Shown here one piece after another: positions 46,749 to 62,174 of a stretch of 64,000 nt of DNA. The notes under the pieces were generated by a model. That model had not been told where the DNA came from, searched no databases, and saw only the letters and a program-made list of their open reading frames with translations. The stretch comes from Kineosporiaceae bacterium SCSIO 59966 (GTDB lineage Bacteria; Actinomycetota; Actinomycetes; Actinomycetales; SCSIO-59966). Numbering within the stretch: the first letter of the stretch is position 1; every line of letters begins with the position of its first letter. The stretch is taken from contig CP052876.1 in NCBI GenBank assembly GCA_020881835.1, forward strand, positions 372,001 to 436,000, in the 5' to 3' direction. A program made the position numbers and the translations under genes.

Positions 46749-47342
46749 GTGCCACCTGATCGGCCGTCTCCGGCCAGCTCCCCGCAGGGCGGGCTCCGTG
46801 CGCCGTTCGAGGACGGGGACCCGCGGCACGGCGAGCGCCTCCTCGACGTCGCCCTCGTCCTGGGGTTCGACGACATGGACGAGGAGGAGATCCGGGCCCG
46901 TCGGGACGAGACCCAGACTCGCGAGGACCGGGTGTCGTACGTGCGCCGCCTGCTCCAGGGCCGGCTGGACGTGCTGATCATGGACCGCCAGCGACGGCAG
47001 CGGGCCGAGGACGGCGTGTACGGCTCCGGTGCTCGGACGATGCAGGAGCTCGTCGCCTCGTTGGCTCCCGCCCTGGCCGAGACCTCGGCGCGGGTCGCGG
47101 AGCGCTCCGTCGGCTCCGTCGAGGCGGTCACGGACTCCGTGGAGGAGTGCGAGGCGGCCGCTCTCGACCCGCGGACCAGCGTGCCGGCATCGCTGTCCGA
47201 CGAGGGCCTCCAGGCGGCCATCGAGCGGATCACGCAGCTGGAGCGCGGCATCTCTCGCCTGCGGCACAGCCTTCACGAGGTCATCGACGCGGCCAACGCC
47301 GAGCTGGACCGCCGGATGGACGAGGTGCGCCTGAACAGGTAG
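46749..47342 (+). CDS. rsiG: RsiG-like c-di-GMP-dependent anti-sigma factor
   Basis: 197 aa, helical, no membrane segment. RsiG of Streptomyces binds the sporulation/flagellar sigma WhiG only with two c-di-GMP molecules, through an E-x3-S-x2-R-x3-Q-x3-D motif on each of two long helices. Here residues 59-74 give a perfect copy (EDRVSYVRRLLQGRLD) and residues 165-180 a second with His in place of Gln (ERGISRLRHSLHEVID). The spacing between motifs (about 90 residues of acidic helix) separates the two helices. It lies at the edge of the flagellar cluster, has a CTCA/GCCGA promoter, and is divergent from korA. The GTG at 46749 is the first start after the promoter; a later start is possible as the first ~20 residues are unconserved. 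The role is inferred from the motifs. Confidence 0.82.
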   Translation: MPPDRPSPASSPQGGLRAPFEDGDPRHGERLLDVALVLGFDDMDEEEIRARRDETQTREDRVSYVRRLLQGRLDVLIMDRQRRQRAEDGVYGSGARTMQELVASLAPALAETSARVAERSVGSVEAVTDSVEECEAAALDPRTSVPASLSDEGLQAAIERITQLERGISRLRHSLHEVIDAANAELDRRMDEVRLNR

Positions 47343-47374: not shown

Positions 47375-47680
47375 TCAGTCGTCGGGGAGTCCCGCCGGCT
47401 GGTCGTCTCGTCGCTGGCCCCCCGGGGGCCGCTCCGGCGCATCCTCCTCCTGCCGCGCAGCCAGGGCGTTCCGCAGCGCGTAGTGGTGCATCACCCGGTA
47501 CACCACCTCACACCCTGCCCAGCTGATGAGCAGTGCCGCGAGGATGCGAACGGCGAACGACTCCAGCGGCTCGTGCTGTGAGAGCAGGGCCGGGAGCTGG
47601 GGGACGGCGATCAGCAGGGTGCCGAGCAGGACGATCCCCACCGGAGGCCCCGGGGTGGCAGGCGGTGGTGTCGGTTCCAT
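47375..47680 (-). CDS. Small membrane protein in the flagellar operon, unknown
   Basis: 101 aa. A Pro-rich start (MEPTPPPATPGPP) precedes two helices at ~13-33 and ~42-60 (AVRILAALLISWAGCEVVY), then a hydrophilic tail rich in Gln, Asp and Arg. No family recognised. It is directly after the PilZ gene (the PilZ stop touches the ATG), the last gene of the operon, and faces rsiG tail to tail with 32 bp between. A structural or chaperone role near the flagellar base is possible but not supported. Confidence 0.72.
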   Translation of the reverse strand: MEPTPPPATPGPPVGIVLLGTLLIAVPQLPALLSQHEPLESFAVRILAALLISWAGCEVVYRVMHHYALRNALAARQEEDAPERPPGGQRRDDQPAGLPDD

Positions 47681-48319
47681 CTACAGCCCTCTCCGGATTG
47701 CTTGGCGCTGCCGGGTGAAGACGTACCGGCGAATGACGTCGGCGACACGTGGTGAGTGGTTGAAGCGGCCGGTCACCACCCACGTCCCGCTGTCGGTCTG
47801 CTCGCACCGCAGCACCACGAACGGCACGGACAGGTCGACGCCGTCCAGCGTCAGGTGCACAACGGTCGCCCGGCCCGTCGGCGGCTCGCTGACGAGCACG
47901 GCGCGCAGCCCCGTCTCGCTGATGTCGACGGTGTGCCCCGGGACCTCCGCAGCGCCCGCCGTGAACGTCATCGGCAGCCGGACCTTCTCGCGCACCGCCG
48001 CCCGGCGCTGCTGCAGCTGCCCTGGGCCCAGGGGACGAAGGACCCAGTCGTGCCGGTCATGGTCCTGCAGCTGTGCGGCGAGCGACCCTCGGCCCGCGGG
48101 GCTCTCCCAGAAGAGCATCACGCGCCCGTCCTCGGGAGGCAGCGCCGTGACCGCGGACCCGCCGATCAGCCGCACGGGTGCGGACACGACGAGGTCGTGC
48201 CTGGTCAAGGCCCGCGCCAGACTCTGCGCGAGCGCCGGGTCGGCGCCGAGCCGCACCTGCAGCGGTGTGCCCTCCCTGGGCCATGCTCGGGCCTCGAGCC
48301 GGCCGTCGTCCGCGGTCAC
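47681..48319 (-). CDS. PilZ-domain c-di-GMP receptor (YcgR-like)
   Basis: 212 aa. The N-terminal ~90 residues resemble the YcgR flagellar brake domain (beta-rich, LQVRLGADPALAQSL). The PilZ domain follows with the c-di-GMP motif RxxxR in QQRRAAVREKVRL and the DxSxxG-type HTVDISETGLRAVL. Such proteins slow or bias the flagellar motor when c-di-GMP is bound. Start GTG at 48319, overlapping the flhF-like stop by 4 bp; the longer open frame upstream belongs to that gene's DNA. Together with rsiG this makes two likely c-di-GMP inputs in the cluster. Confidence 0.87.
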   Translation of the reverse strand: MTADDGRLEARAWPREGTPLQVRLGADPALAQSLARALTRHDLVVSAPVRLIGGSAVTALPPEDGRVMLFWESPAGRGSLAAQLQDHDRHDWVLRPLGPGQLQQRRAAVREKVRLPMTFTAGAAEVPGHTVDISETGLRAVLVSEPPTGRATVVHLTLDGVDLSVPFVVLRCEQTDSGTWVVTGRFNHSPRVADVIRRYVFTRQRQAIRRGL

Positions 48320-49497
48320 CGGGCCCCCTGGTCGGCGAGCCGTGCGGCCAGCACGCCCGCCCACGCACTGCGGGTCGCGGGCCGACCGTCGAGGCGAGCG
48401 ACGGGGACGCCGACCGCGAGTACCGATGCCGGGTCCGCTGTCGAGTCGAGGTCGTCGACGGCGAGGGCGTCGACACGGCCCAGCCGCTCGACCCAGGCCC
48501 TGACGTCCTCCGGCTTGCGGGACGCTTCGACCACCGCCCACGTCGTGCACGGTTGGAGTGCACTGAGGGTCTCCGCTGCCCACTGCACGCCGCGAAGGCT
48601 GAGCGGCGCGTCCACCACGACGATCGTCGGGTGGGTTCGCCGGCTCCACTGGGCCCGTCGTTGCGCTGCACTCTCCGGGCCGCTGGCCCGCAGTCTGGCG
48701 GGAAGCCGCTCGGTCGGCCCCCCGCGACTCACCAGCGTGATCGCGTCGGCCGGTAGCCGGGTCTCGGCCGCCACGTCACGTGCGAGGCGCATCGCGGCGG
48801 TCGTCTCGCCCACCAGGGCGAGGACGTCCCCGTCGCCGAGCCGGGCAGCGGGCGGCTCGGGGAGCCGCATGACCGCTGTGACCATCGAGGTGAGTGCCTG
48901 TCCGTCCGGTACGGGGCCGCCGGGTGCCGGCAGGCCCGAGCGGTCCTCGACCCCCGAGAGCCTGGTGAGCTTGGTCAGCACCTCTCGGAACGAGGCCGAC
49001 TCGGTCGACACGGCGGGCCTCGCGGTGGCAGGTGGTGTGGCTGCTCGTGATGCGGCTGCTCGTGGTGCGGCTGCCGGTGCTGCGGCCGGCTCCTCGGGTG
49101 AGGCGGTCTGTGCTTCGTCACTGGCACTGGCACTGGCACTGGCACTGGCCCTGTCACTGTCACTGTCACGTCGCAGCGCAGCGAAGCGCTCCGCCGTGCT
49201 GACCCGGTCGGCCATCTCGGTCAGCTCGGTGGTGTCGGTGAGCCCGGTGGTGTCGGTGAGCCCGGTCGTGTCGGGCAGCCCGGTCGGGTCGGGCAGCTCG
49301 GTCGTGTCGGTCAGCTCCGTCGGGTCGGTCACGTCCTCGACCTCGACGAGGACCTCGAACCGCTCTCGGCTGAAGAAGCCGGCGATCCCCCCGGTGCGCA
49401 CCCGGTCAGCCTGGACGATGCGGGCCTCGGGACCGCACTCTCGGCGCACCCGAGCCAGCAGCTCGTCGAGGTCAGGTCCCTCAAGCTGTAACTGCAT
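48316..49497 (-). CDS. FlhF-like protein with degenerate GTPase domain
   Basis: 393 aa. The N-terminus MQLQLEGPDLDELLARV and ECGPEARIVQADRVRTGGI matches the start of FlhF, the SRP-type GTPase that places flagella. The G domain follows from ~215, but the P-loop is VGETTAAMRLARD and not GPTGVGKTTT, so the nucleotide-binding lysine is missing, and VVVDAPLS replaces the usual DTAG. The likely TKLD counterpart is VDDLDSTAD. The linker ~55-170 holds repeats: TDTTGLTD-type (18-bp units, DNA ~49205-49335) and Ser-Ala (DNA ~49122-49150). I read it as a pseudo-GTPase that kept the flagellar partner function. ATG at 49497 overlaps flhA by 17 bp. Confidence 0.75.
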   Translation of the reverse strand: MQLQLEGPDLDELLARVRRECGPEARIVQADRVRTGGIAGFFSRERFEVLVEVEDVTDPTELTDTTELPDPTGLPDTTGLTDTTGLTDTTELTEMADRVSTAERFAALRRDSDSDRASASASASASDEAQTASPEEPAAAPAAAPRAAASRAATPPATARPAVSTESASFREVLTKLTRLSGVEDRSGLPAPGGPVPDGQALTSMVTAVMRLPEPPAARLGDGDVLALVGETTAAMRLARDVAAETRLPADAITLVSRGGPTERLPARLRASGPESAAQRRAQWSRRTHPTIVVVDAPLSLRGVQWAAETLSALQPCTTWAVVEASRKPEDVRAWVERLGRVDALAVDDLDSTADPASVLAVGVPVARLDGRPATRSAWAGVLAARLADQGAR

Positions 49498-51529
49498 CCC
49501 GGGCAAGGTCGATCACACCTCTCGTCTCGATCTGGAGCCTGCTGGAGAGCTCGGAGTAGGCGATCACCGGCATGCGGGGGACGGTGACCCGGACCAGTCG
49601 CCGCACTGCCGCCCGCACCTGCGGCGCACAGACGAGCACCACCTGCTCACCGGCCTGCTCAGCGGTCTGGGACACCTGGGCGAGGTCGATCATCAGCTGC
49701 TCGGCGTCCTGCGGCCCCAGCGCCAGGAAGCTGCCGCCCTCGCCGGTGCGCAGCGACTCCAGCAGTCGCTGCTCGGTCAGCGGCTCGAAGGTCACGACCC
49801 GCAGCCGGCCGTCCTCGGCGAGGGCCGAGGAGATCGCCGGGCCGATCGCCGTCCGCGCGGCCTCGACCAGGGCTTCTGGGTCCTTGGAGGTGCGGGCACG
49901 CTCGGACAGCGCCTCGAAGAGCCGGGGCAGGTCCCGGATCGAGATCTGCTCGTCCAGCAGTGCCTGCAGCACGTGCTGCACCTCGCCCAGCGAGAGCTGG
50001 GAGGGGGTGAGCTCCTCGACCACCGTCGGGTGGCTCCTCTTCACCATGTCGACCAGTGACCTGACGTCCTCGCGGCTGAGAAGGCGACCGGCATGCTCGC
50101 GGACCACCTCGGCCAGGTGGGTGATGAGCAGGGACGCCCGGTCGACGACGGTGGCGCCGGCGATCTCGGCCTGCTGCGCGAACTCGGCCGGTACCCAGCG
50201 CGCCGGCAGCCCGAAGACGGGCTCGGTCGTGGGGGCCCCCGGCAGCGATCCCAGGTCGTCCCCGATCGCCAGCACGTGCCCCGCCGGGGCCTCGCCTCTC
50301 GCGACGTCCACTCCGTGGACCCGGATGGCGTAGGTGTGCGGGGGCAGGTCCAGGTTGTCACGGGTACGGACCAGGGGGATGACGATCCCGAGCTCGAGGG
50401 CGATCTTGCGGCGCAGCGCCCGCATCCTGTCCATCAGGTCCCCACCGCTGGCCACGTCGACCAGGTCGACGAGGTCGTACGCCACCTCGAGCTGCAGCGG
50501 TTCGACGCGCATCTCGGCGGCCAGCGCCTCCGGGGAGTCCGCCGCCGGGGCCGCTGGTTCGGCGTGCCCGTCGTCCGTCGCGACGGCAGGGGCGTCGGGG
50601 TCCGGGATGCGCAGCGTCGCCAGCAGCACGGCGCCGCCCACGACGAGGAACGGCATCATGGGCAGGCCAGGCACGAGGGCGAGCAGGCACACCGCGGCCC
50701 CGCCGAGGCGCAGCGCCTTGCGCTGGCGGGAGAACTGCCCGACCAGGTCGCTGGCCATGTCCCCGTCCGAGGTGGAGCGGGTGACGATGATCCCGGTGGC
50801 GACCGAGATCAGCAGCGCAGGAATCAGCCCGACGAGGCCGTCGCCGACGGTCAGCAGGCTGTAGGTGTTGACCGCCTCGCCCATCGGCATCCCACGCTGG
50901 ACGACGCCGGTGAAGAAGCCGCCGACGAGGTTGATGACGGTGATGAGGATGCCGGCGATGGCGTCACCCTTGACGAACTTCGACGCGCCGTCCATCGCCC
51001 CGTAGAAGTCAGCCTCCGCGGTGACCTCGGCGCGCCGGGTGCGGGCGGTGTCCTCGTCGATCAGACCGGAGTTCAGGTCGGCGTCGATCGCCATCTGCTT
51101 GCCGGGCATCGCGTCGAGGGTGAACCGCGCGGACACCTCGGCCACCCGGCCCGCGCCGTTGGTCACGACGATGAACTGGACGAGGACCAGAATGGCGAAG
51201 ACCACCATGCCGACGACGAGCGACCCACCGATCACGACGTGCCCGAACGCGTCGATGACCTTCCCGGCGTAGCCGTCCAGCAGCACGAGGCGTGTGGAGC
51301 TGACGTTGAGCGCGAGCCGGAAGATCGTGGCGATCAGCAGCAGGGAGGGGAAGATCGCGAAGTCCAGCGGCCGCTTCACCGACATGCTCATGAGCAGGAT
51401 CAGCACACCGGCGGTGATGTTGACCACCAGCAGCATGTCGAGCACCGCCGCGGGCAGCGGGACGACGAGCATGACGACGATCAGGACGACGGCGGCGGGG
51501 ATGGCGGTCTTCATCACGGTGCGGCCCAC
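49481..51529 (-). CDS. flhA: Flagellar export apparatus protein FlhA
   Basis: 682 aa. Eight helices in the first ~320 residues hold the proton-driven export gate; the FHIPEP-family signature is in ARFTLDAMPGKQMAIDADL, and the cytosolic domain (from ~350) docks chaperone-substrate complexes such as FliS and FliT with their cargo. Length is normal. Start at ATG/GTG 51529; the first residues MGRTVMKTAIPAAVVLIVVM fit a membrane start, with a second ATG six residues in as an alternative. FlhB and other export genes are not visible in this window and may lie beyond the right edge. Confidence 0.96.
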   Translation of the reverse strand: MGRTVMKTAIPAAVVLIVVMLVVPLPAAVLDMLLVVNITAGVLILLMSMSVKRPLDFAIFPSLLLIATIFRLALNVSSTRLVLLDGYAGKVIDAFGHVVIGGSLVVGMVVFAILVLVQFIVVTNGAGRVAEVSARFTLDAMPGKQMAIDADLNSGLIDEDTARTRRAEVTAEADFYGAMDGASKFVKGDAIAGILITVINLVGGFFTGVVQRGMPMGEAVNTYSLLTVGDGLVGLIPALLISVATGIIVTRSTSDGDMASDLVGQFSRQRKALRLGGAAVCLLALVPGLPMMPFLVVGGAVLLATLRIPDPDAPAVATDDGHAEPAAPAADSPEALAAEMRVEPLQLEVAYDLVDLVDVASGGDLMDRMRALRRKIALELGIVIPLVRTRDNLDLPPHTYAIRVHGVDVARGEAPAGHVLAIGDDLGSLPGAPTTEPVFGLPARWVPAEFAQQAEIAGATVVDRASLLITHLAEVVREHAGRLLSREDVRSLVDMVKRSHPTVVEELTPSQLSLGEVQHVLQALLDEQISIRDLPRLFEALSERARTSKDPEALVEAARTAIGPAISSALAEDGRLRVVTFEPLTEQRLLESLRTGEGGSFLALGPQDAEQLMIDLAQVSQTAEQAGEQVVLVCAPQVRAAVRRLVRVTVPRMPVIAYSELSSRLQIETRGVIDLARDAVTA

Positions 51530-51655: not shown

Positions 51656-52090
51656 TCAGGACAAGGGCAGTCGTTCGCGCAGCTGGTACGGGGAGCCGGT
51701 GAGGAGCACCTGGGCCGCGGTCCGGGTCCGAGCGTTGACGACGATGGGCGCGAACAGGTTCGCGGTGGAGTCCTCAGCCCGTTCGCCGAGGGTCACCACC
51801 GACAGCAGCAGCGCGTCCTCGGCGTCCTCCAGCCCGAGGGAGGTGGCGGTGCCGTCGTCGAGTGAGGGCGCGTACTCGGGGAAGTACACGGTGGGCGGGA
51901 CGACGACGAACTGGGCGTTCTCGTCGTCCAGGCTCCTCAGCACGAAGCACGGCACGTCGTCGGAGACGGAGACCAGCGCGAACCTGTGGGCTCCGGGGAA
52001 CCCGACGATCCCGGCAGGGATGGTGATCTCCGGGAGCTCGCCGGGCAGATCGGTCAGCACGGCAGCGACTGTATCCACGCCTGAGCGCAT
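51656..52090 (-). CDS. fliW: Flagellar assembly factor FliW
   Basis: 144 aa. FliW binds flagellin and CsrA; when flagellin leaves the cell it captures CsrA and relieves translation control of flagellin. Signatures: IVGFPGAHRFALV, FVVVPPTVYFPEY and TANLFAPIVVNARTRTAAQ. The last motif is the family hallmark. csrA normally follows fliW, but the next gene is flhA after 126 bp without a small gene. ATG at 52090, 8 bp after flgL; the first ~10 residues may be extra, as a GTG at 52060 is possible. Confidence 0.93.
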   Translation of the reverse strand: MRSGVDTVAAVLTDLPGELPEITIPAGIVGFPGAHRFALVSVSDDVPCFVLRSLDDENAQFVVVPPTVYFPEYAPSLDDGTATSLGLEDAEDALLLSVVTLGERAEDSTANLFAPIVVNARTRTAAQVLLTGSPYQLRERLPLS

Positions 52091-52098
52091 TCCACGCC

Positions 52099-53028
52099 TC
52101 AGCGCAGGAAGTCCACGAGCGACGGCTGGATGACCCGTGCCGTCGCACCGAGCGCGGCCTGGTAGGCGACCTCCTGGAGCTGCAGGTCGACGATCGTCCT
52201 GGCCAGGTCGACGCTCTCGGTCTCGGCGAGCCGGCTGGTCCCGGTGAGGACCTTGTCGTCCGCGTTGTCCCGCAGCGTCTCCACCCGGTTGAACCGCGCG
52301 CCGACCTGACCGAGGGTCGACAGCATCCGGTCGATCGCCGTGTCGAGGTCGCCGAGATCGGTGGTCAGGTCCTCCATGTTGACCTTCGGGTCGACGGCGC
52401 CGTCCGCGTCGGCGTCGGTGCGCAGGTGCTGGCTGATGCGGTCCAGGACGGCGAACAGCTGGGACGGGTCGCCGTCGTCACCGAAGACCGCTGGTCCGGT
52501 GAAGGACACCTCGACCGCGGTCCCGGAGGCAACGGTGCGCTTGAGGACGCCGTTGTCCCCGACGTACGTGCCGGTGGCGGGGTCGTACGCTGCCACGCCC
52601 GAGGTGGTGCCCCCGAACAGGGGCACGTTGAGGTACCTCGTGTTGGCGACCTCGAGCAGTCCCTGCCGCAGGTTGTCGATCTCGATGGCCATCGCCTCGC
52701 GTGCCGCCGGAGGGATCGCGTCCGTCATCCCGGCGACGGTCACCTCCCGGGCGCGGTTCACCAGGTCGAGGCTGCGGGTCAGCACGGTGTCCGCCGTGGC
52801 CAGCCACCCCAGGCCGTCCTCGGCGTTGCGAGCGTACTGCTCGGTGCGGGCGTTGTCGCCGCGCAGCTGCATGGCCTGCACCGTGCGGGTAGGGGAGTCC
52901 GACGGCCGGTTCAGCGAGCGCCCGGAGGAGAGCTGCTCCTGGAGCTGCTGCATGCGGTCGAGGTTGCCCTGCAGCCCCTGCAACGACGTCTGGGCGACGG
53001 TGCGCTGGGTGATGCGGAACGCGGTCAC
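52099..53028 (-). CDS. flgL: Flagellar hook-filament junction protein 3
   Basis: 309 aa. FlgL connects FlgK to the flagellin filament. N-terminal helices resemble flagellin (MTAFRITQRTVAQTSLQGLQ, LSSGRSLNRPSDSP), and the C-terminal helices (ESVDLARTIVDLQLQEVAYQ) complete the coiled-coil core. The order flgK-flgL is typical. A GTG start is encoded at 53028; the gene starts 30 bp after flgK. Confidence 0.94.
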   Translation of the reverse strand: MTAFRITQRTVAQTSLQGLQGNLDRMQQLQEQLSSGRSLNRPSDSPTRTVQAMQLRGDNARTEQYARNAEDGLGWLATADTVLTRSLDLVNRAREVTVAGMTDAIPPAAREAMAIEIDNLRQGLLEVANTRYLNVPLFGGTTSGVAAYDPATGTYVGDNGVLKRTVASGTAVEVSFTGPAVFGDDGDPSQLFAVLDRISQHLRTDADADGAVDPKVNMEDLTTDLGDLDTAIDRMLSTLGQVGARFNRVETLRDNADDKVLTGTSRLAETESVDLARTIVDLQLQEVAYQAALGATARVIQPSLVDFLR

Positions 53029-53058
53029 GGGAGTCTCCTGCCAGGCGGCCGGGCCGGC

Positions 53059-54438
53059 TCAGCGGCCCACCAGGCCGGTGCGGTTGATGAGCGTGTCGAG
53101 CATCTGGTCGACCGACGTGACGAATCGCGCCGCCGCCTCGTACGCCCGCTGGAACGTGATCATGTTCGTCATCTCCTCGTCGAGGTTGACACCGGAGACG
53201 GCCTCCCGGGCGGCGTCGACCTGGGCCGTCATCTGCGCCTGGATGTCGACGCGCCGGAGGCTGGTCTGCACCTCCACGCCGAGGTCGACGATGTACGCCC
53301 GGTACAGCGTGTCCGAGCTGCCGGTCGCACCCGCCAGCTCGGCCAGTCTCATCGCGTTCCCGCCGTTCCGGCTGCCCGCGGGAGACCCGCTCTCCGCGGC
53401 GGCGAGCTGAGTCGGGTCCGACAGGCCCACCCGGATGCTGGTCGCGGTGAGCGGCCCCGACGCGGACACGAACAGCGGCTGCCCGGCGTTCCCGGCCTGG
53501 TCCACCCCGTCGACGTGGACGGTGTTCACCGTGTCCGCCAGGGCCGCGGCGATCTCGTCGAGACGCGCGGCATGGCGCGGCAGGATCTCGTTCACCGAGG
53601 ACAGCAGCCCGCCCACCTGGCCACCCATGATGCTGGCAGCGGCTCCGTCCGCGGCCCAGGTCAGCTGTGCGGGGTCGGTGCCGGAGAGCTCCAGCTCGAG
53701 GGTGTCGGGACCGCTGACCAGAGGGCGGCCGGCGACCAGCACGGTCACCATGCCGTCCTGGTCGACCTGGCGGGTCGCGCCGACGAGGTCGGCCAGCTGG
53801 CTGACCAGCCGGTCCCGCTGGTCGGCCAGGTCGTTGGGGGACAGGCCGCTGCGCGTCGCCACCGAGACTGCCTGGTTCAGCTCGGCCACCCGGGTGGCCG
53901 TCGCGTTCACCTCCTCGGTCAGGGCGTCGAGCTGCTGGACGGAGACGTCACGCAGCCCCGTCAGGCCCGCCGCGGCCCGGTTCAGGCCGGTTGCCAGGGT
54001 CTCCGCCCGCTCCAGGAGCTGGGTGCGGGCCGCCAGGTCGTCAGGGTTGTTCGCGACGTCGTCCCAGCCGTTGAAGAAGTCGGACATCTGCGCCTGCAGG
54101 CCGATGTCTCCCGGCTCGGCGAACGTGGTCTCCACCTCGCGCAGGACCCCGTTGACGGCGCGGAGGGCCGCGTCGCGGCCGTGCTCGACGAGCGCCCGGC
54201 CCTCGAGGAACTCGTCGCGGACGCGGTCCGTGCCGTCGACGGTGACGCCGTTGCCGGCACCCGACCAGCGGGAGTGGACGGCAGGACTCACCGGGCCGTG
54301 GTTGGCCGACAGGTCCACCCGCTGGCGGCTGTAGCCGTCGGTGTTGGCGTTGGCGATGTTGTGGCCGGTCACCTGCAGGCCGCGCTGCTGCGCGTACAGG
54401 GACGACAGCCCGATGTTCAGACCGGAGAAGTTCGACAC
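53059..54438 (-). CDS. flgK: Flagellar hook-associated protein 1
   Basis: 459 aa. FlgK is the first junction protein at the hook end. N-terminal rod-protein motif GHNIANANTDGYSRQRVD (residues ~27-44) and the C-terminal motif EEMTNMITFQRAYEAAARF; these form the D0/D1 coiled coil. The middle is rich in Ala and Gly. The start codon is one base after the flgN stop. Export is by the FlhA apparatus with FlgN as chaperone. Confidence 0.95.
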   Translation of the reverse strand: MSNFSGLNIGLSSLYAQQRGLQVTGHNIANANTDGYSRQRVDLSANHGPVSPAVHSRWSGAGNGVTVDGTDRVRDEFLEGRALVEHGRDAALRAVNGVLREVETTFAEPGDIGLQAQMSDFFNGWDDVANNPDDLAARTQLLERAETLATGLNRAAAGLTGLRDVSVQQLDALTEEVNATATRVAELNQAVSVATRSGLSPNDLADQRDRLVSQLADLVGATRQVDQDGMVTVLVAGRPLVSGPDTLELELSGTDPAQLTWAADGAAASIMGGQVGGLLSSVNEILPRHAARLDEIAAALADTVNTVHVDGVDQAGNAGQPLFVSASGPLTATSIRVGLSDPTQLAAAESGSPAGSRNGGNAMRLAELAGATGSSDTLYRAYIVDLGVEVQTSLRRVDIQAQMTAQVDAAREAVSGVNLDEEMTNMITFQRAYEAAARFVTSVDQMLDTLINRTGLVGR

Positions 54439-54439
54439 C

Positions 54440-54937
54440 TCACATCGCCCCGTCGACGAGTCGGGGTCCCGAGGGGCGGGACGCGCGTCCGGAGGCGGTG
54501 TAGGTGCGGGTGGTCTCCGGCTCGCTGAGGGCGGCGAGCGCCTCGCGCGCTGCCCGGTGAGCCGCCTGCAGCAGGTCCCGGTTGGCGTTCGCGAGGGACT
54601 GGATCTCCTCGGTCGCCGCCATCAAGGCCTTGCGGTGCTCGGCCAGGATGTCACCCCAGGGGGCCGGGGCCGTCTCGATGAGCTCGTGCAGGCTCGGCGC
54701 GGCCGCCAGGCCCAGCAGCTCGGCGACCCGCTCCACCTCGACGGCCCGCGCCAGCTCCGCGCGCTTGATCTCCTCGAGCACCATCTCCACCTCGCGGGTG
54801 GCGTGCGGCAGCCAGCGACTGCGCTGGGCAGCGAGCACGAGCTGCTCCTCCTCCAGCTTGAACTGGAGCAGCTCGAGCAGCTCTCGCTCCCGCCAGAGCG
54901 TGCTGGACACCTCGCCCAAGGCTTCGCCCACGGTCAC
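54440..54937 (-). CDS. flgN: Flagellar protein FlgN (chaperone of FlgK and FlgL)
   Basis: 165 aa, all-helical. It has a FlgN-type helical hairpin: TLWRERELLELLQFKLEEEQ and LAAQRSRWLPHATREVEMVL. This protein binds FlgK and FlgL before export. GTG at 54937 has a GAGGGTGGA ribosome site; the longer frame starts upstream of the presumed transcription start and is less likely. A CTCA/GCCGA promoter lies 60-85 bp upstream, so this would be the first gene of an operon flgN-flgK-flgL-fliW-flhA-flhF-like-PilZ-small membrane protein. The FlgN call is based on context plus helical pattern. Confidence 0.8.
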   Translation of the reverse strand: MTVGEALGEVSSTLWRERELLELLQFKLEEEQLVLAAQRSRWLPHATREVEMVLEEIKRAELARAVEVERVAELLGLAAAPSLHELIETAPAPWGDILAEHRKALMAATEEIQSLANANRDLLQAAHRAAREALAALSEPETTRTYTASGRASRPSGPRLVDGAM

Positions 54938-54996
54938 TCCACCCTCGATCCGTCCGGCCGTCGACGACGGCCCGTGCTGCGCTGACAGCTGCACCA

Positions 54997-55021
54997 TCGG
55001 CACGCTGCGGAAAGACCTGAG
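54997..55021 (-). promoter_or_regulatory. FliA/WhiG-type promoter upstream of flgN
   Basis: On the minus strand CTCA (55021-55018), 16 bp, then GCCGA (55001-54997). It has the same spacing as the rsiG and flagellin promoters, and faces away from the sigma gene. Confidence 0.68.
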
Positions 55022-55084
55022 CAGTTCCGCAGCGCGGGGCCGGCCCGCGGACCGGAGACAGCCGGCCGGTGCCGTGGCGAACGG

Positions 55085-56044
55085 GTGAATTCGGTCGAAC
55101 GCCCGCCGTCACGGCTCAACCACGGACGGCGCCGCCCCGAGGCAGTCCTCGTGCCCAAGTCGCTGCTGTCCTCGGCGGACGAGGACGCACTGGTCCGTGA
55201 CCACCTCCCGGTGGTCGGCTACCTCGTCGCGGAGCTGGCGGGCCGGCTGCCACGTCACGTCAGCCGGGACGACCTGGTCTCCGCCGGGAACGCCGCGCTC
55301 GTCGCGGCGGTGCGCTCCTACCAGCCCGAGCGAGGCCCGTTCGGTTCGTACGCTCGCACGAGGATCCGCGGTGCCCTGCTCGACGAGCTGCGGCGGATGG
55401 ACTGGGCCGCCCGCTCCGTGCGTGCCGAGGTGCGCCGCCGTGACCGGGTCGTCGACGAGCTGACCTGCCAGCTCGGACGCCGGCCGGAGCGGGCCGAGGT
55501 CGCCGCCGCCCTGGGCATCTCCGTGCGGGACCTCGACGGGGTCGACGACGACGTCCACCGCTCCGTCGTGCTGAGCTACCAGCACGTCGCCGAGACGCGG
55601 GACGTCGCCGCCGAGCTGCCCGACGGCGCGCCCACCCCCGAGCAGGTGATCCTCGAACGCGAGCGGCAGGCGTACCTGCTGGCCGCCGTGGAGTGCCTGC
55701 CCGACCGGCTGCGTCGGGTCGTCGAGGGGTACTTCTTCGAGGACCTGCCGATGGCGGCCCTCTCCGCCGAGCTGGGGGTCAGTGAGTCGCGGATCTCCCA
55801 GATGCGCGCCGAGGCAGTAGCGCTGATGCGGGAAGGTATCGCCGCCCAGCTGGACGCCGGTGCCGGTGCCCGGGAGCCGCGCCTGGACGGTGCGGCCGCC
55901 CGCCGCCGGGCCGCCTACTACGCGGCCGTCGCGGCGCACGCGGACTACCGGACCCGGGTCAGCGTGCCCGCCCCGCGGACGGCGTCGTCCGGCCGGGAAA
56001 AGTTCCGCGGATCCGCTCAGGAAGAGGTCGCCGCCGCCGAATGA
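55085..56044 (+). CDS. fliA: FliA/WhiG-family sigma factor
   Basis: 319 aa. Region 2: [38 protein letters not shown] and [20 protein letters not shown], with [15 protein letters not shown] as region 3. Region 4 helix-turn-helix: [20 protein letters not shown]. The family directs flagellar (FliA) or sporulation (WhiG) genes; in this motile cluster with CTCA/GCCGA promoters it is flagellar. The last ~55 residues (Ala/Arg-rich, after MREGIAAQL) are an extension with no homology that I recognise. The likely partner is the RsiG-like protein at 46749. GTG start; no sigma-dependent promoter of the CTCA type is seen upstream, so housekeeping control is likely. Confidence 0.9.
56016..56041 (+). promoter_or_regulatory. 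FliA/WhiG-type promoter of flagellin
   Basis: CTCA (56016-56019), 16 bp, GCCGAA (56036-56041), placed inside the end of the sigma gene. Transcription would start near 56050, giving a leader of about 100 nt. Confidence 0.75.
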
Positions 56045-56147: not shown

Positions 56148-56999
56148 ATGGGTCTCCAGATCAACCAGAACGTCGCGGCGCTCAACGCGTACCGCAACCT
56201 GTCGGTCACCGACGGCCAGCTCTCCAAGAGCCTGGAGCGGCTGTCCTCGGGCCTGCGGATCAACCGCGCTGCCGACGACGCCGCCGGCCTGGCCATCAGC
56301 GAGAAGCTGCGCGGCCAGGTCAAGGGCCTCAACCAGGCCGTCGCCAACGCCCAGAACGGCATCAGCCTGATCCAGACCGCGGAGGGCGCGCTCAACGAGT
56401 CGCACTCGATCCTGCAGCGGATGCGTGAGCTCGCGGTGCAGTCCGCCAACGACACGAACACCTCTGCCGACCGGACACAGATCCAGAAGGAGGTGGACCA
56501 GCTCGCGTCGGAGCTGACCCGGATCTCCGACACCACTGAGTTCAACACCAAGAAGCTGCTGGACGGCAGCTTCACCGCCGCGCAGTTCCAGATCGGTGCC
56601 AACGCCGACCAGACGCTCTCGGTCTCGATCGGGGCGATGGACGCGCAAACCCTCGGTGTGGGGACCCTCGACGGTGCGACGGGCGTGACCACCGGTCTCG
56701 ACGTCTCCACGGACGCGGCGACCGCGAGCAGCGCGATCACCACGATCCAGACGGCGATCGACTCGGTCTCCTCTCAGCGCTCCACCCTCGGTGCGGTGCA
56801 GAACCGCCTCGACCACACGATCAACAACCTGAACGTGGCGGCCGAGAACCTCACCGCGTCGGAGTCCCGGATCCGGGACACCGACATGGCCAAGGAGATG
56901 ACGTCCTTCACCCGGGCGCAGATCCTGTCCCAGGCCGGCACCGCCATGCTGGCCCAGGCCAACCAGGTCCCGCAGAGCGTCCTGCGTCTGCTGGGCTGA
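56148..56999 (+). CDS. fliC: Flagellin
   Basis: 283 aa, the filament subunit, exported and self-assembling. N-terminal D0/D1: [20 protein letters not shown] and [21 protein letters not shown]-terminal: [20 protein letters not shown] and VLRLLG. The middle (residues ~150-220) is short, so the D2/D3 outer domain is minimal. ATG at 56148 with GGAGGAAGG 7 bp upstream. Driven by the CTCA/GCCGAA promoter and followed by a strong hairpin, so likely monocistronic and highly expressed. Confidence 0.97.
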
Positions 57000-57059: not shown

Positions 57060-57371
57060 GTGAGCACCGTCCCGCTCCACCCGGCCGCTTCGGCGGACCT
57101 GCCGCGACAGCGCCCAGGCCTGCCGGCCGCCCCGTCCACCGACGCCCTGGTGGCACGGGCGCAGTCCGCCGTGGACAAGGCCGGCGTCACCGCCGACCGC
57201 GTGGTCGCCGAGCTCGCCGAGCACGAGCAGACCGGCCACCGCGTCGTCCGGCTGGTCGACGCCGACACCCGCCAGGTCGTCGGGCAGGTCCCGCCCGAGG
57301 TGGTTCTCGACCTCATCGCCTGGGCGATGGACGTCCAGCGCCGTAAGGAGGACCGCGATGGTCAGCATTGA
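57060..57371 (+). CDS. flaG: FlaG-family flagellar protein
   Basis: 103 aa. The C-terminal half (HRVVRLVDADTRQVVGQVPP and EVVLDLIAWAMD) matches FlaG, a small protein of uncertain role next to fliD; it may limit filament length. The N-terminal half is Pro/Ala-rich. GTG start with GAGG upstream; the stop overlaps the fliD start by 14 bp, so the two are translationally linked. Confidence 0.82.
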   Translation: MSTVPLHPAASADLPRQRPGLPAAPSTDALVARAQSAVDKAGVTADRVVAELAEHEQTGHRVVRLVDADTRQVVGQVPPEVVLDLIAWAMDVQRRKEDRDGQH

Positions 57372-58728
57372 CGGCCTGGTCTCCGGCCTGGACACCACCG
57401 CGCTCGTCCAGCAGCTCATGCAGCTGGAGCGCGCCCCCCAGGTGCGGCTGGCGAATCAGCAGTCCCAGCTCAAGACGACCATCACCGGCTACCAGGGCCT
57501 GAACACCCAGTTCTCGCTCATCGGCAACGCCGCCGAGGCCGCCGCCGAGGCTGCCACCTGGACGGCGGCCAGGGCCACCTCCAGCGACGACGCCCGGGTC
57601 GGTGTCACCGCGACCCCGGGGGCGCCGGCCGCCCGGCTCACGGTCGCGGTGCAGCAGCTGGCCACCGACCAGGTCAGCACCTCAACCGCCACGGTGTCGT
57701 CCCCCACGGACGGCGCCGTCACCACCACGGCGATCACGCTGACCAGAGGTGGCTCCACGACCGACCTCACCCTGGCGGGCACCAGCCTCGCCGACCTGGT
57801 CAAGGCGATCAACGACGCCGACGCCGGCGTCACGGCCAGTGCCGTGCAGGACACCCCCGGCAGCTACCGGCTCGTGCTGACCAGCACGGGCACCGACACG
57901 GTGAGCGTCACCGCGACAGCCGACGGCTCCGACCCCTTCACCACGGCGCTCGGCCCGCTGACCCAGACGTCCGCCGGCACCGACGCCGAGCTGCTCGTCG
58001 GCGGCCCCGGCGGGTACCTCGTCACGCGCAGCAGCAACACGGTCAGCGACCTGCTCGACGGGGTGACCCTCACCCTCAAGCAGGCGGACCCGAGCGCGGC
58101 GGTCACCGTCGAGGTGGGCCCGGACGTCGACGCCATCACCGCCAAGGTGGACAAGATGGTCTCGGCCGCCAACGCCGCTCTCGGTGAGATCTCCCGCCTC
58201 ACTGCCTACGACGCCGAGACCGGGAGCGCGGGAGTGCTGATGGGCGACTCGCTGCCCCGGCTGCTCCAGCAGCGGATCGTGGACGCGGTGCGCGGCAGCG
58301 GGGACGGCAGCGCCGGCGCTGCCGGGATCACCGTGACCCGCGACGGCACGCTGACCTTCGACAAGGCCAGGTTCGCCGAGGCGTACGCCGCCGACCCGGC
58401 CGGCGTCCAGGCCGCGATCGGTGCCGGCACCGACTCCGCTCCCGGCCTGGCCGCCCGACTCGACGCCGTCGCCGGGGACGCCACCCGGTCTCAGTCCGCC
58501 GAGGGCGGCCCCGGCCTCATCACCTCGGCGCTGGACTCCCGCAACCGGCAGGTCCAGGGCCTCACCGACCGCATCGCCGACTACGACCGGCGGCTGGAGA
58601 TGCGCGAGCAGACGCTCCTGCGGCAGTTCACCGCGATGGAGACCGCGCTCAGCGCCGCCCAGCAGCAGAGCAGCTGGCTGTCCAGCCAGCTCGCCGGACT
58701 GTCCACGAACTGGATGGGGAACTCTTGA
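57358..58728 (+). CDS. fliD: Flagellar filament cap protein
   Basis: 456 aa. FliD caps the growing filament and inserts flagellin. N-terminal motif DGLVSGLDTTALVQQLMQLE (residues ~4-23); a C-terminal coiled coil ends with RQFTAMETALSAAQQQSSWL. Length is normal. ATG start; the ribosome site is GTAAGGAGG. TGATG overlap with fliS. Confidence 0.95.
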   Translation: MVSIDGLVSGLDTTALVQQLMQLERAPQVRLANQQSQLKTTITGYQGLNTQFSLIGNAAEAAAEAATWTAARATSSDDARVGVTATPGAPAARLTVAVQQLATDQVSTSTATVSSPTDGAVTTTAITLTRGGSTTDLTLAGTSLADLVKAINDADAGVTASAVQDTPGSYRLVLTSTGTDTVSVTATADGSDPFTTALGPLTQTSAGTDAELLVGGPGGYLVTRSSNTVSDLLDGVTLTLKQADPSAAVTVEVGPDVDAITAKVDKMVSAANAALGEISRLTAYDAETGSAGVLMGDSLPRLLQQRIVDAVRGSGDGSAGAAGITVTRDGTLTFDKARFAEAYAADPAGVQAAIGAGTDSAPGLAARLDAVAGDATRSQSAEGGPGLITSALDSRNRQVQGLTDRIADYDRRLEMREQTLLRQFTAMETALSAAQQQSSWLSSQLAGLSTNWMGNS

Positions 58729-59120
58729 TGAGCACCAGCGCCTTGGCCCGCAGCCGCTACGCCCGCGACTCGGTGACCACCGCGTCCCCCGCCCGGCTGC
58801 TGGTCATGCTCTACGACCGGCTGGTACGTGACCTCGTCACCGCTGAGCGCGCTCTCGTCGAGCAGGGCGGCGCACCCGCTGGCGACGCCCGCGACGCGCT
58901 CCTGCACGCCCAGGAGATCGTCCTGGAGCTACGTGCCAGCCTCGACCTCGACGCCTGGGACGCCGCTGCCGGGCTCGCCGACCTCTACGCGTTCCTGCAC
59001 GGCGAGCTGGTCGCCGCCAACGTCGACCGCGACGTCACCCGCATCACCCCGTGCCGGCAGATCGCCGAGGAGCTCCGCGACGCGTGGCGGCAGGCCGCGC
59101 TGGCCACGGTGTCGCCATGA
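58728..59120 (+). CDS. fliS: Flagellin export chaperone FliS
   Basis: 130 aa, four helices. Signature ASPARLLVMLYDRLVRDLV and DLYAFLHGELVAANVDRD. FliS binds the flagellin C-terminus in the cytosol. The ATG overlaps the fliD stop; the stop overlaps the next gene by 4 bp. Confidence 0.92.
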   Translation: MSTSALARSRYARDSVTTASPARLLVMLYDRLVRDLVTAERALVEQGGAPAGDARDALLHAQEIVLELRASLDLDAWDAAAGLADLYAFLHGELVAANVDRDVTRITPCRQIAEELRDAWRQAALATVSP

Positions 59121-59410
59121 CCGCGCCGTCGTGGGAGGCGTGCCTGCGCGACCTCGCGGCGTCCCTCGCCGCCCAGCGCCAGGCCCTGGACGACGGCGCG
59201 GTCCCGGTGCCGTTCCAGCCTCCTGCCGGCCTCGGGCCCCTCCCGCGCCACCTGGTGCCCCGGGCCCTGGAGCTGCTGACCGAGAGCCGCGAGGTCGAGC
59301 GGCGGCTCGCCGCGGCGATGACCGGCGTCCGCCGTCACAGCGACGTCGCTCGACGGCTTCGCCCCGCCGCCGGCCCGGCCCCCGCCCGTTTCGTCGACCG
59401 GACCGGCTGA
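59117..59410 (+). CDS. FliT-like small flagellar protein
   Basis: 97 aa, basic, two helices separated by a Pro-rich loop (PVPFQPPAGLGPLPRHL). FliT, the chaperone of FliD, commonly follows fliS, and the size is right, but sequence similarity is weak. The ATG overlaps the fliS stop (ATGA). The tail (RLRPAAGPAPARFVDRTG) is low complexity. Hypothetical flagellar protein is the safe name. Confidence 0.6.
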   Translation: MTAPSWEACLRDLAASLAAQRQALDDGAVPVPFQPPAGLGPLPRHLVPRALELLTESREVERRLAAAMTGVRRHSDVARRLRPAAGPAPARFVDRTG

Positions 59411-59437
59411 AGCCCGCCGCCGGACAGGAGGACGACA

Positions 59438-61063
59438 GTGCGGTGGCAGCACCGGGCCGACGGGTACGTGTGGGCCGTGCCCGACCCGGGCGAGGACCTC
59501 ACCTTCGAGCAGGCCGTCCGCCAGGCCGACGAGCACGGCTGTGAGCGGCTTGACCTGGAGGCCCTCCAGGCGACCCTCGTCGACGGCGAACCTCGTGCGG
59601 TCGCCGTCCTCGGCCCGGCGTCTGCCGACGGCCGGCTCACGGTCGAGGTGAGTGACGACGGTCTCACCGCCGTCCTGCACGTCGAGCCGCCGGGCGCGCG
59701 GAAACCCCGACTCAGCCACGACGACGTCGACCGTGCGCTACGGGACGCGGGCGTGCGCCTCGGGGTCGACCGGAACCTCCTCGCCACGCTCCCCCTCGAC
59801 CGCCCGGGGAGCTACCAGGTGGCCTCCGGGTGGCCTCCCACCGAGGGTCGGCCGGGATTCCTCGAGTACGAGGTCTCCGTCGACCACGAGCTGCGCCACC
59901 GGGTCCGGGACGACGGCAGCGTCGACTTCCACTCCGTCGCACGGATGCCGAACGTGCGCGCCGGTCAGCTGCTCGCCGTCCTCGTCCCGCCCCTGCCAGG
60001 GGTCCCGGGGCGGGACGTTCACGGTGAGGTGATCGAGGCTCCCGCCGGGGAGCCGGCGGTCTTCCCCGAGGGTGACAACGTGTGGGTCAGCGACGACGGG
60101 ACGCGGCTGCACGCCGGGATCGACGGTCTGCTGGAGATCGTCGGGGAGAAGGTGTCCGTCCGCCCGGACCTCGTCGTCGAGGGCGACGTGGACTTCTCCA
60201 CCGGCTCCATCGACTTCGCCGGCGACGTCATCGTGCACGGGTCGGTGCTCCCCGACTTCTTCGTCACGGCGACCGGCAAGGTCGTGGTCCTCGGAGACGT
60301 CGACCACGCCAGGATCGACGCCAGCACCATGGTGTGGATCCGTGGCGCCCTGGTCGGTGACCGGGCACGGGTCCGGTGCAACGGCAACGTCAAGATCGGC
60401 ACCGTCCGGGAGGGACGCGTCGAGGCCGGGGACTCCGTGGTCGTCGAGCACGAGACGCTCGGGGCCGAGATCCTCGCCGGCGTCCGTCTCGTGCTCCCGT
60501 CGTCGCGAAACCGGCTCGCAGGTGGCGTGGTGCACGCCGGGGTCGAGGTGATCGCCGGGGAGATCGGGTCCATCGCCGGCATCCCCACGGAGATCACCAT
60601 CGGCCGCAGCCCTCAGGAGGTGGAGCTCCTCGCCCTGCTCACGGCAGAGCTGCGCGAGCACAGCACCGTCCTCGAGCGGGTGCTGGCCACGACGACCCCG
60701 CTGCGCCAGGAGCCCGAACGGATCGCCGAGCTGCAGGGTCGCCGGCGGGAGGCCGCCGACCGGCTGCTGGAGCTGGAGGCCTCGCTGCGGCGGCGTGTCG
60801 GCGAGATCGCCGACCGGCTGCGCCAGCTCGACCGGCCGGAGCTCGACGAGCAGCCCGGCCGTGTCGTCGCCCGCCAGGTGATGCGCCGCTCGGTGCGGGT
60901 TCGCTCCGGCGCGGACGTCGTGACCACGACGAGGGACCAGTTCCGCGTCGTCGCCACCCGGGTGAACGGGCGGCTCACCGTGGTACCGCTGGCACAGCAG
61001 CCCGCCGCGGAGCCCGCCCCGGCAGCGCCACTGGCCCAGCCGTCTTGGGCCATTCGGGGGTAA
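59438..61063 (+). CDS. DUF342/FapA family protein in the flagellar operon
   Basis: 541 aa. N-terminal ~170 residues carry a FapA-type region (VDRNLLATLPLDRPGSYQVA), then the right-handed beta-helix of DUF342 (residues ~230-390; repeats like GDVDFSTGSIDFAGDVIVHG and VVVLGDVDHARIDASTMVWI), then a long coiled coil (LELEASLRRRVGEIADRLRQ). FapA has been linked to flagellar assembly in Vibrio and is common beside flagellar or chemotaxis genes; the mechanism is unclear. GTG start with AGGAGGAC ribosome site. Its C-terminus is Pro/Ala-rich. Confidence 0.82.
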   Translation: MRWQHRADGYVWAVPDPGEDLTFEQAVRQADEHGCERLDLEALQATLVDGEPRAVAVLGPASADGRLTVEVSDDGLTAVLHVEPPGARKPRLSHDDVDRALRDAGVRLGVDRNLLATLPLDRPGSYQVASGWPPTEGRPGFLEYEVSVDHELRHRVRDDGSVDFHSVARMPNVRAGQLLAVLVPPLPGVPGRDVHGEVIEAPAGEPAVFPEGDNVWVSDDGTRLHAGIDGLLEIVGEKVSVRPDLVVEGDVDFSTGSIDFAGDVIVHGSVLPDFFVTATGKVVVLGDVDHARIDASTMVWIRGALVGDRARVRCNGNVKIGTVREGRVEAGDSVVVEHETLGAEILAGVRLVLPSSRNRLAGGVVHAGVEVIAGEIGSIAGIPTEITIGRSPQEVELLALLTAELREHSTVLERVLATTTPLRQEPERIAELQGRRREAADRLLELEASLRRRVGEIADRLRQLDRPELDEQPGRVVARQVMRRSVRVRSGADVVTTTRDQFRVVATRVNGRLTVVPLAQQPAAEPAPAAPLAQPSWAIRG

Positions 61064-61114
61064 TGCCCCGACGAGAACTCAAGGAGGCCGGCCCCCGGCT
61101 CCGAGAACCAGGGC

Positions 61115-61453
61115 GTGACCCAGCCGACCTTGGACGTGCTGCACAGCGCACTGAGTGGCCTGGCGCTGCGCCAGCGGATCATCGCGGACAACATCGCCAA
61201 CGTGGAGACACCGCACTTCCTCGCGGGACGTGTGGACTTCGAGTCGGCGCTGCGCGACGCCATGGCCGACGGTGACGGCTCGCTGGCCGAGCCGACCGTC
61301 GCGCGCTCCCTGGAGCCCACGCGGACGAACGGAAACAACGTGAACCTCGACCAGGAGACCCTCGCCCTGATCGACACGGGCCTGCGGTACCAGATGATCG
61401 CCCAAGCGGTCAGCGGCAAGTTCCAGCTGCTGCGGACGGCGTTGCAGCGATGA
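61115..61453 (+). CDS. flgB: Flagellar basal-body rod protein FlgB
   Basis: 112 aa. FlgB is the first rod subunit next to FliE. It has the rod motif IIADNIANVETPHFLAGR (residues ~23-40) and a helical C-terminus (LALIDTGLRYQMIAQAVSGK). GTG start; no clear ribosome site within 12 bp. 4-bp overlap with flgC. The proximal rod genes flgB-flgC-fliE are in the usual order. Confidence 0.94.
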   Translation: MTQPTLDVLHSALSGLALRQRIIADNIANVETPHFLAGRVDFESALRDAMADGDGSLAEPTVARSLEPTRTNGNNVNLDQETLALIDTGLRYQMIAQAVSGKFQLLRTALQR

Positions 61454-61848
61454 GCGTCTTCGGCGCCATCGGGATCTCCGGGTCCGGTCTGCTCGCGCAC
61501 CGCAAGTGGCTCGACGCCGTCTCGGACAACATCGCCAACATCAGCACCGTCACCGGCACCGACCAGGCCGCCTTCCAGGCCCGGATGGTCGTCGTCCAGG
61601 CCGACGAGTACGGCGAGGGCGGCGGCGTTCGCGTCGCCGGGGCCACCTTCGGGGACCCCGAGGGACGCCTCGTGCACGAGCCGGACCACCCGCTGGCCGA
61701 CGAGAACGGGTACGTCCGGTACCCCGACATGGACCTCGGCGACCAGATGGTCCAGCTGATGATCGCCCAGCGCGCCTACCAGGCGAACCTCACGGTCGTC
61801 GACCGCGCCCGTGACACGTACATGCACGCTCTGCAGATCGGGAAGTGA
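61450..61848 (+). CDS. flgC: Flagellar basal-body rod protein FlgC
   Basis: 132 aa. Motif [20 protein letters not shown] at the N-terminus and [20 protein letters not shown] at the C-terminus. Forms the proximal rod. ATG overlaps the flgB stop (ATGA). Confidence 0.95.
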
Positions 61849-62174
61849 CCGTGTCGATTCCACCTGTCGGCGGCCTGACCACCCCGCCCGTCCTGCCGAC
61901 CCTGCCCGGGGCCGACGCCCCGGCGGCCGCACCCGCCACCGGGCAGGAGCTGGCCGCCGACTTCGGTGCGATGCTCTCGGGCCAGATCTCGGCGCTGCAG
62001 GACCTGCACACCACCTCCGACCAGCTGGCCAGGGCCGCTGCCACCGGGGACCTGACCGACGTGCACGACTACACGATCGCGAGCACCCAGGCCGCGGTGG
62101 CCACCGAGCTGACCGTCGCCGTCCGTAACCGCGCGGTGGAGGCGTTCACCGAGATCATGCGGATGCAGATCTGA
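61845..62174 (+). CDS. fliE: Flagellar hook-basal body complex protein FliE
   Basis: 109 aa. The adaptor between the MS ring and the rod. C-terminal helices: [20 protein letters not shown] and [20 protein letters not shown], the second being the family hallmark. N-terminal Pro-rich segment. GTG start overlapping flgC by 4 bp. Confidence 0.93.

Follow-up and report, generated by a model that had tools for sequence, protein, structure and literature searches.

The locus described here raises the question of whether a c-di-GMP-dependent anti-sigma factor of the RsiG type, encoded at the edge of a flagellar gene cluster, acts on the flagellar sigma factor encoded nearby or on a different partner. 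According to a 2021 study (PMC8325347), RsiG and the sigma factor WhiG form the only known sigma/anti-sigma pair that is targeted by c-di-GMP, and this control was shown for sporulation. An earlier note on the stretch of 64,000 nucleotides that was analysed as a whole, here called the window, had classified the product of one gene, termed B in the following, as an RsiG-type protein and had named the sigma factor encoded at 55085 as its target.

Gene B and its flagellar neighbourhood

The reading frame of gene B (Table 1) is preceded, at a distance of 10 bases 5' of the start codon, by the sequence GAGG (identified by eye), and its G+C content of 0.79/0.48/0.92 at the three codon positions follows the pattern of a real gene. 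Both motifs reported previously, an exact one and one with a single exchange of Gln for His, were found again. When the protein sequence was shuffled 200,000 times, at least one exact motif occurred in 159 cases and two motifs with either Gln or His in none, and a six-frame scan of the 64 kb window yielded the two motifs of B as the sole stop-free matches, which rules out a chance origin. The search with a hidden Markov model of RsiG that the earlier note had proposed yielded a match to the Pfam family PF22802 in two stretches, with an E-value of 1.4e-19 and 70 bits at a cut-off of 27. The best solved relative detected by phmmer was chain T of 6pfj, the RsiG protein of Streptomyces venezuelae deposited as AmfC (E 2.4e-8), in agreement with the RsiG-type classification; NCBIfam contains no family for B and none for the standard RsiG copy (gene A, see below). 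Gene B was thus confirmed as encoding a twin-motif RsiG.

The AlphaFold2 model of B (overall pLDDT 79, pTM 0.65) comprises two long helices, residues 45-87 and 151-196, each of which carries one E-x3-S-x2-R-x3-[Q/H]-x3-D motif and has block-mean pLDDT values of at least 90, and two shorter helices within the joining loop. The helical hairpin, whose absence had been named as grounds for rejecting the classification, was therefore predicted, and the model has the antiparallel coiled-coil fold of RsiG. At E-values of up to 0.001, Foldseek matched B to only four PDB chains, all of them S. venezuelae RsiG (TM about 0.5-0.6, rmsd 8-10), including 6pfv with an E-value of 1.4e-4 and TM scores of 0.49/0.58. 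In a VIA-align comparison two RsiG chains ranked at the top with Z-scores of 11.3 and 11.2; since unrelated helical proteins reached up to 9.4 and since, as the tool cautions, a helical model scoring below about 13 may match through arrangement alone, the family assignment of B rests on its sequence, and the fold match supports it without proving it.

Among the known systems, the twin-motif RsiG of S. venezuelae (6pfj, 6pfv) is the best structural match and shares with B the two motifs on two antiparallel coiled-coil helices. It differs in that B is a second copy located in a flagellar instead of a nitrobindin neighbourhood, has His in motif 2 and has largely lost the loop and end residues common to standard RsiGs. 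The single-motif RsiG of Rubrobacter radiotolerans (7lq2 to 7lq4) likewise has the motif and the coiled-coil but is a homodimer of one-motif chains and displays a weaker similarity to B (E 0.028); type IV pili have been argued to be under the control of its switch (PMC8325347).

With respect to the gene neighbourhood, the flagellar cluster reported to adjoin B was confirmed by the assignment of FlhA, FliW, a flagellin-like protein, FlgK, FlgN, flagellin, FliD, FliS, FliE and FliF. Gene B is transcribed alone, toward the flagellar genes and not together with them; the PilZ gene is located two genes from B and fliA at a distance of 7.7 kb. The start of the PilZ gene is probably nearer to 48340, and a frame homologous to flhF follows flhA in 18 of 20 stretches from relatives.

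Table 1. Gene B, its motifs and neighbouring features in the window
Feature	Coordinates	Strand	Evidence or remark
Gene B, rsiG paralogue, twin-motif RsiG-family protein	46749..47342	+	197 aa, GTG start
Motif 1 of B	46923..46970	+	residues 59-74, EDRVSYVRRLLQGRLD; exact E-x3-S-x2-R-x3-Q-x3-D
Motif 2 of B	47241..47288	+	residues 165-180, ERGISRLRHSLHEVID; Gln to His, otherwise matching E-x3-S-x2-R-x3-Q-x3-D
Small 101-aa protein, hydrophobic in stretches (by eye)	47375..47680	-	convergent with B; unmatched in Pfam and NCBIfam
PilZ-domain protein (c-di-GMP receptor type), end of the flhA-flhF gene run	47681..48649	-	Pfam PilZ E 1.6e-10
FlhF-like protein	48316..49506	-	TIGR03499 E 1.1e-10, below its cut-off
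flhA	49481..51529	-	FHIPEP E 4e-253
fliW, flgL-like (Flagellin_N), flgK, flgN	51656..55003	-	Pfam
Inverted repeat	55003..55034		between divergent flgN and fliA
FliA-class flagellar sigma factor, not WhiG	55085..56044	+	Pfam, class tree, NF004935, GAE at the K57/G61/R62 places
Flagellin	56148..56999	+	Flagellin_N E 3.4e-49, Flagellin_C E 3.7e-31
fliD, fliS, FapA-domain protein, two rod proteins, fliE, fliF	57358..63778	+	Pfam

Three RsiG-family genes and the divergence of B

The genome, which consists of one contig of 3.10 Mb, contains three RsiG-family genes, termed A, B and C. Gene A, located outside the window at about 2743.7 kb, encodes a standard RsiG with two exact motifs and is flanked, as in many relatives, by a BKACE gene on one side and, on the other, by a gene of the nitrobindin type with a THAP4 heme-binding domain; within the stretches examined, a homologue of the latter was detected in 23 of 29 standard-clade loci, A included, and four of the six misses concerned stretches of less than 12 kb. 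Gene C, at 228.2 kb, has degenerate motifs and is located between the genes for a Crp-type regulator (crp) and an endonuclease III-type protein (nth). A and B share 35% identity over 130 amino acids. In an RsiG tree of 41 rows, which omits seven duplicate entries for genes of the window genome, B was placed inside a clade of 19 rows formed by the standard RsiGs of its own order (support 97/95), on a branch of length 1.86 that renders its exact place uncertain. A belongs to the same clade, and differs from B by its two exact motifs and its nitrobindin-type and BKACE neighbours.

A placement of B in a second RsiG-family clade, hinted at by the residues EDRVSY and by the His in motif 2, was rejected on the basis of the tree. 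This second clade comprises 11 of the 41 rows (support 100/100), with crp-like and nth-like neighbours in 8 of the 11; in 9 of the 11, motif 1 is complete and motif 2 conforms to [ED][ST]R[HF]D. Its members include L042 (9494-10914, genome G366), six genes around position 9000 of their loci (L032, L034, L036, L039, L030 and L012), one near 2800 (L046) and one near 4100 (L048). Six genomes (G059, G079, G092, G104, G125 and G407) contain two RsiG-family genes each, at separate places and one per clade. In G366 the second-clade gene shares 4 bases with what is probably the start of a gene for a WhiG-class sigma factor (L042:9494-10914), the encoded sigma factor having the residues KGR at the places considered below, and this arrangement suggests a translationally coupled anti-sigma/sigma pair.

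The divergence of B was assessed at conserved positions of an alignment comprising 43 of 80 kept loci and B itself, which were divided into motif, helix and other positions by a sequence-based scheme of our own. B kept 9 of 10 motif positions, 18 of 30 other helix positions and 11 of 32 positions elsewhere, i.e. 29 of 62 beyond the motif residues, compared with 10, 24 and 18 in the same sets of A. The residues lost from the N-terminal, loop and C-terminal parts of B probably include contacts to WhiG, and the retention of the motifs amid this loss points to selection on ligand binding. As the RsiG of another genome (G383) kept only 11 of 29 positions elsewhere alongside a WhiG with KGR, the loss of outer positions in B is compatible with WhiG binding.

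Orthologues of B were searched for in two data sets. Among 396 genomes of the order, with up to eight candidates scored per genome, 46 matched B, the genome of origin was the only one to match twice, and the best foreign identity was 41%. In a scan of GTDB contigs with one motif-1 pattern containing Gln, which may omit the window genome's own records, the best foreign identity to B was 38% among 80 kept of at least 556 confirmed loci. No orthologue of B was found in either set, and among the genomes listed (66 of the 396 and those of a further survey) none shares a family with the window genome. A counterpart of B beside flhA was found in none of 20 stretches from relatives, two of which are shorter than 8 kb, and among the matches listed in two whole-genome surveys the RsiG gene of flhA-bearing relatives was never located beside flhA. 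These comparisons characterize B as an additional, fast-diverging RsiG copy. With reciprocal best hits as its criterion, the 2021 study had found a second RsiG in one of 134 genomes (PMC8325347).

The earlier note had suggested that the His in motif 2 could alter ligand affinity or stoichiometry. The variant is present, but it turned out to be less special than assumed: the Gln place of motif 2 is occupied by His in 6 and by Phe in 3 of the 43 aligned relatives (9 of 43 together), in an alignment in which motif 1 cannot show His because the search pattern demanded Gln. The exchange of Gln for His is common in motif 1 across surveyed RsiGs, and the single-motif RsiG of C. woesei with His binds c-di-GMP with a Kd of 25 uM, compared with 12 uM for a Gln-bearing one (PMC8325347). 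In the published cases, fluorescence polarisation showed c-di-GMP to be bound about 15-fold more tightly in the presence of the sigma factor. Since six relatives have His at this place and a His-bearing RsiG binds the ligand, the variant of B is ordinary by sequence comparison and probably compatible with c-di-GMP binding. In family f17 (L019, L024 and L028), motif 1 of RsiG contains His, and motif 2 is degraded to AGRQD or QGRQD.

The flagellar sigma factor and WhiG

Two sigma factors of the FliA/WhiG type are encoded in the genome, the one at 55085 and a WhiG at 925.5 kb, outside the window. The WhiG equivalog NF004935 (cut-off 343 bits) yielded 408.5 bits for the 925.5 kb gene and 145.4 bits for the 55085 sigma factor. 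A quick tree of 73 rows, comprising 76 matches minus three duplicates (L008, L009 and L120), split cleanly into 35 rows of the flagellar class and 38 of the WhiG class (SH-aLRT 100). In S. venezuelae, WhiG contacts c-di-GMP via K57, G61 and R62, which are conserved in RsiG-binding WhiGs (PMC8325347). At the corresponding places, which were assigned from the K-x3-G-R spacing of another genome's WhiG (G072) rather than from the S. venezuelae protein, the genome's own WhiG has KGR and the 55085 sigma factor has G, A and E. KGR was present in 33 of the 38 WhiG-class rows versus none of the 35 flagellar-class rows, 29 of which have Glu at the R62 place. The bit score, the residues GAE and the lack of KGR throughout its class led us to reject the 55085 sigma factor as a WhiG. 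The proposal that it is the target of B consequently gained little from these data, as it has GAE for KGR and as a standard RsiG and a WhiG exist outside the window.

The own WhiG deviates at 1 of 116 conserved positions. The FliA encoded at 55085 deviates at 5 of 65, which marks it as an ordinary member of its class, and no co-adaptation was seen at these 65 positions. In 18 of 35 genomes the flagellar-class sigma gene is located within 55 kb of flhA on a shared contig; in the remaining 17 it lies on a different contig or at a greater distance, or flhA is absent. The own whiG gene (L236:9028-10044) follows a gene for a phage-integrase-family recombinase and precedes the gene for ribosomal protein S2 by about 2 kb, surroundings that we take to resemble the place of whiG in Streptomyces.

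Sigma factors with an altered KGR provide a control for the pairing of these residues with RsiG. In family f9 (L112, G026; L113, G008), where flhA is present and RsiG was not matched, the WhiG-class sigmas read TSR and TTR and have lost K57 and G61, as if the loss of RsiG had freed this site in WhiG. Genome G055, whose only RsiG-family match is degenerate and below the cut-off, has a WhiG-class sigma with NGR. Two cases count against the pairing. In genus g22 (L021, L025 and L029; RsiG near 9000), represented by three flhA-bearing genomes, the WhiG keeps KGR and the motif places of RsiG read EARDA and ETRLR, so that this protein is possibly an anti-sigma factor no longer needing c-di-GMP; in G014 a sigma factor with KAR is present alongside a good RsiG.

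Proposed role of B and its link to flagella

Among 59 genomes of the order, flhA was detected in 17 of the 19 RsiG-positive and in 6 of the 40 RsiG-negative genomes (Fisher p 5e-8, or 2e-7 without G055, which is RsiG-positive in this table). Collapsed to 19 families, with f8 set RsiG-negative as its one RsiG-family gene is the degenerate, below-cut-off copy of G055, the association was not significant (p 0.15). Outside the order, flhA was present in 11 of 54 RsiG-positive genomes, a set from which f33 (Streptomyces-like, as inferred) was excluded except for two rows, both without flhA. This association applies chiefly to the standard copy and not to B, whose own link to flagella is suggested by its position and by the co-occurrence of RsiG and flhA in the order. 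Actinoplanes possesses flagella and WhiG and has no RsiG (PMC8325347). RsiG and flagella are mentioned in separate passages of PMC13251363, and PMC13232838, on a Streptomyces phosphodiesterase that displaces RsiG from WhiG, contains no word starting with flagell-.

FlgM is the usual anti-sigma factor of FliA, is unrelated to RsiG and is not known to be armed by c-di-GMP; its regulatory niche is the one that B would fill if acting on FliA. FlgM (PF04316) was detected in none of 29 flhA-bearing actinomycete genomes, the own genome included, and was found in the controls Escherichia coli, Bacillus subtilis and Thermotoga maritima. The promoter pattern TAAA-N15-GCCGATAA with up to two mismatches did not occur in the window and occurred four times in the genome, compared with three times for the reversed control. 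In the window, a spacing of N14 yielded no match and N16 yielded one, inside the flagellin gene; five further stretches of the genome, scanned at spacings 14-16, contained one match, near the standard RsiG gene, and none by whiG or the flagellar continuation. None of these scans of the window, the whole genome and the five further stretches revealed a convincing promoter of the FliA/WhiG type. The position of B, the PilZ gene, the genome's 14 GGDEF matches (two of which lie no farther than about 6 kb from gene A), the absence of FlgM and the association in the 59 genomes count for a link of B to flagella, whereas the family-level p-value, the 11 of 54 genomes outside the order, the orientation of B and the absent promoter count against it.

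The explanation that we tentatively prefer is that B is a second c-di-GMP-armed twin-motif RsiG, acting beside the standard RsiG and with the WhiG encoded at about 925.5 kb as its likeliest partner. From the motifs and the predicted fold we infer that B binds c-di-GMP. At high c-di-GMP levels, the hairpin would bind a c-di-GMP dimer via the E/S/R/Q(H)/D residues of both helices, and the loaded protein would keep its sigma factor off RNA polymerase and release it at low levels. The partner would be the WhiG, which retains the c-di-GMP-contacting residues, and B would act alongside the product of gene A with an expression or affinity of its own. The family and predicted fold of B, its place in the standard clade, its retained motifs, the KGR residues and the single deviation of the own WhiG, the 14 GGDEF matches and the association of RsiG with flhA in the 59 genomes favour this explanation; the position of B, which by itself favours the 55085 sigma factor, the loss of outer conserved residues (11 of 32 kept), the missing orthologue, the weak association by family and outside the order and the absent promoter count against it. 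B borders the flagellar cluster and is convergent with PilZ-flhF-flhA, a location that suggests a coupling of c-di-GMP to motility through B, most likely an indirect one.

It appears rather unlikely that B is a c-di-GMP-armed anti-sigma factor of the 55085 FliA that replaces the missing FlgM, with the c-di-GMP contacts on the sigma side rebuilt. The distance of 7.7 kb between B and fliA, the neighbouring PilZ gene, the absence of FlgM from all 29 flhA-bearing genomes and the divergence of outer positions with retained ligand motifs are consistent with such a role, but FliA has G, A and E in place of K57, G61 and R62, and the Glu typical of its class reverses the charge at a phosphate-contacting place. 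Moreover, the ordinary FliA bears no sign of co-adaptation, and none of the 20 stretches from relatives, including the two short ones, has a counterpart of B beside flhA. The corresponding history, in which the standard RsiG was duplicated, the copy moved beside flagellar genes and its partner changed from WhiG to FliA, is doubtful. If the change of partner had taken place, c-di-GMP would act directly on the flagellar sigma factor, resulting in a switch from c-di-GMP via an anti-sigma factor to flagella.

We also consider it improbable that B binds c-di-GMP without acting on a sigma factor, serving either as a c-di-GMP sink or in the control of another partner, flagellar or as yet unnamed. The disappearance of conserved residues beyond the motifs, the long branch and the lack of an orthologue in the 396 genomes and the 80 kept GTDB loci would fit this role; a similar loss in G383, whose RsiG occurs together with an intact WhiG, and the full hairpin predicted for B, with its helices in the loop, speak against it. 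Least likely is that B is a functionless, degrading duplicate of the standard RsiG with an accidental flagellar neighbourhood, as might be read from its fast branch, its presence in a single genome and the degenerate motifs of other RsiG-family genes of the order (own C, G055, genus g22), since its frame, start and codon pattern are intact and since it retains 9 of 10 motif residues versus 29 of 62 other conserved positions, whereas motif residues are missing from the degenerate genes elsewhere.

A genome that encodes two twin-motif RsiGs, a single WhiG and a FliA without the known c-di-GMP contacts represents a natural test of switch duplication and partner choice, and the same gene set also tests whether the RsiG switch controls swimming. 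As a separate observation, the inverted repeat in Table 1 is perfect, with 10-base arms (by eye) and a 12-base spacer; its core is unique in the window at up to three mismatches and had no other exact copy among the loci compared, and the repeat represents a possible operator.
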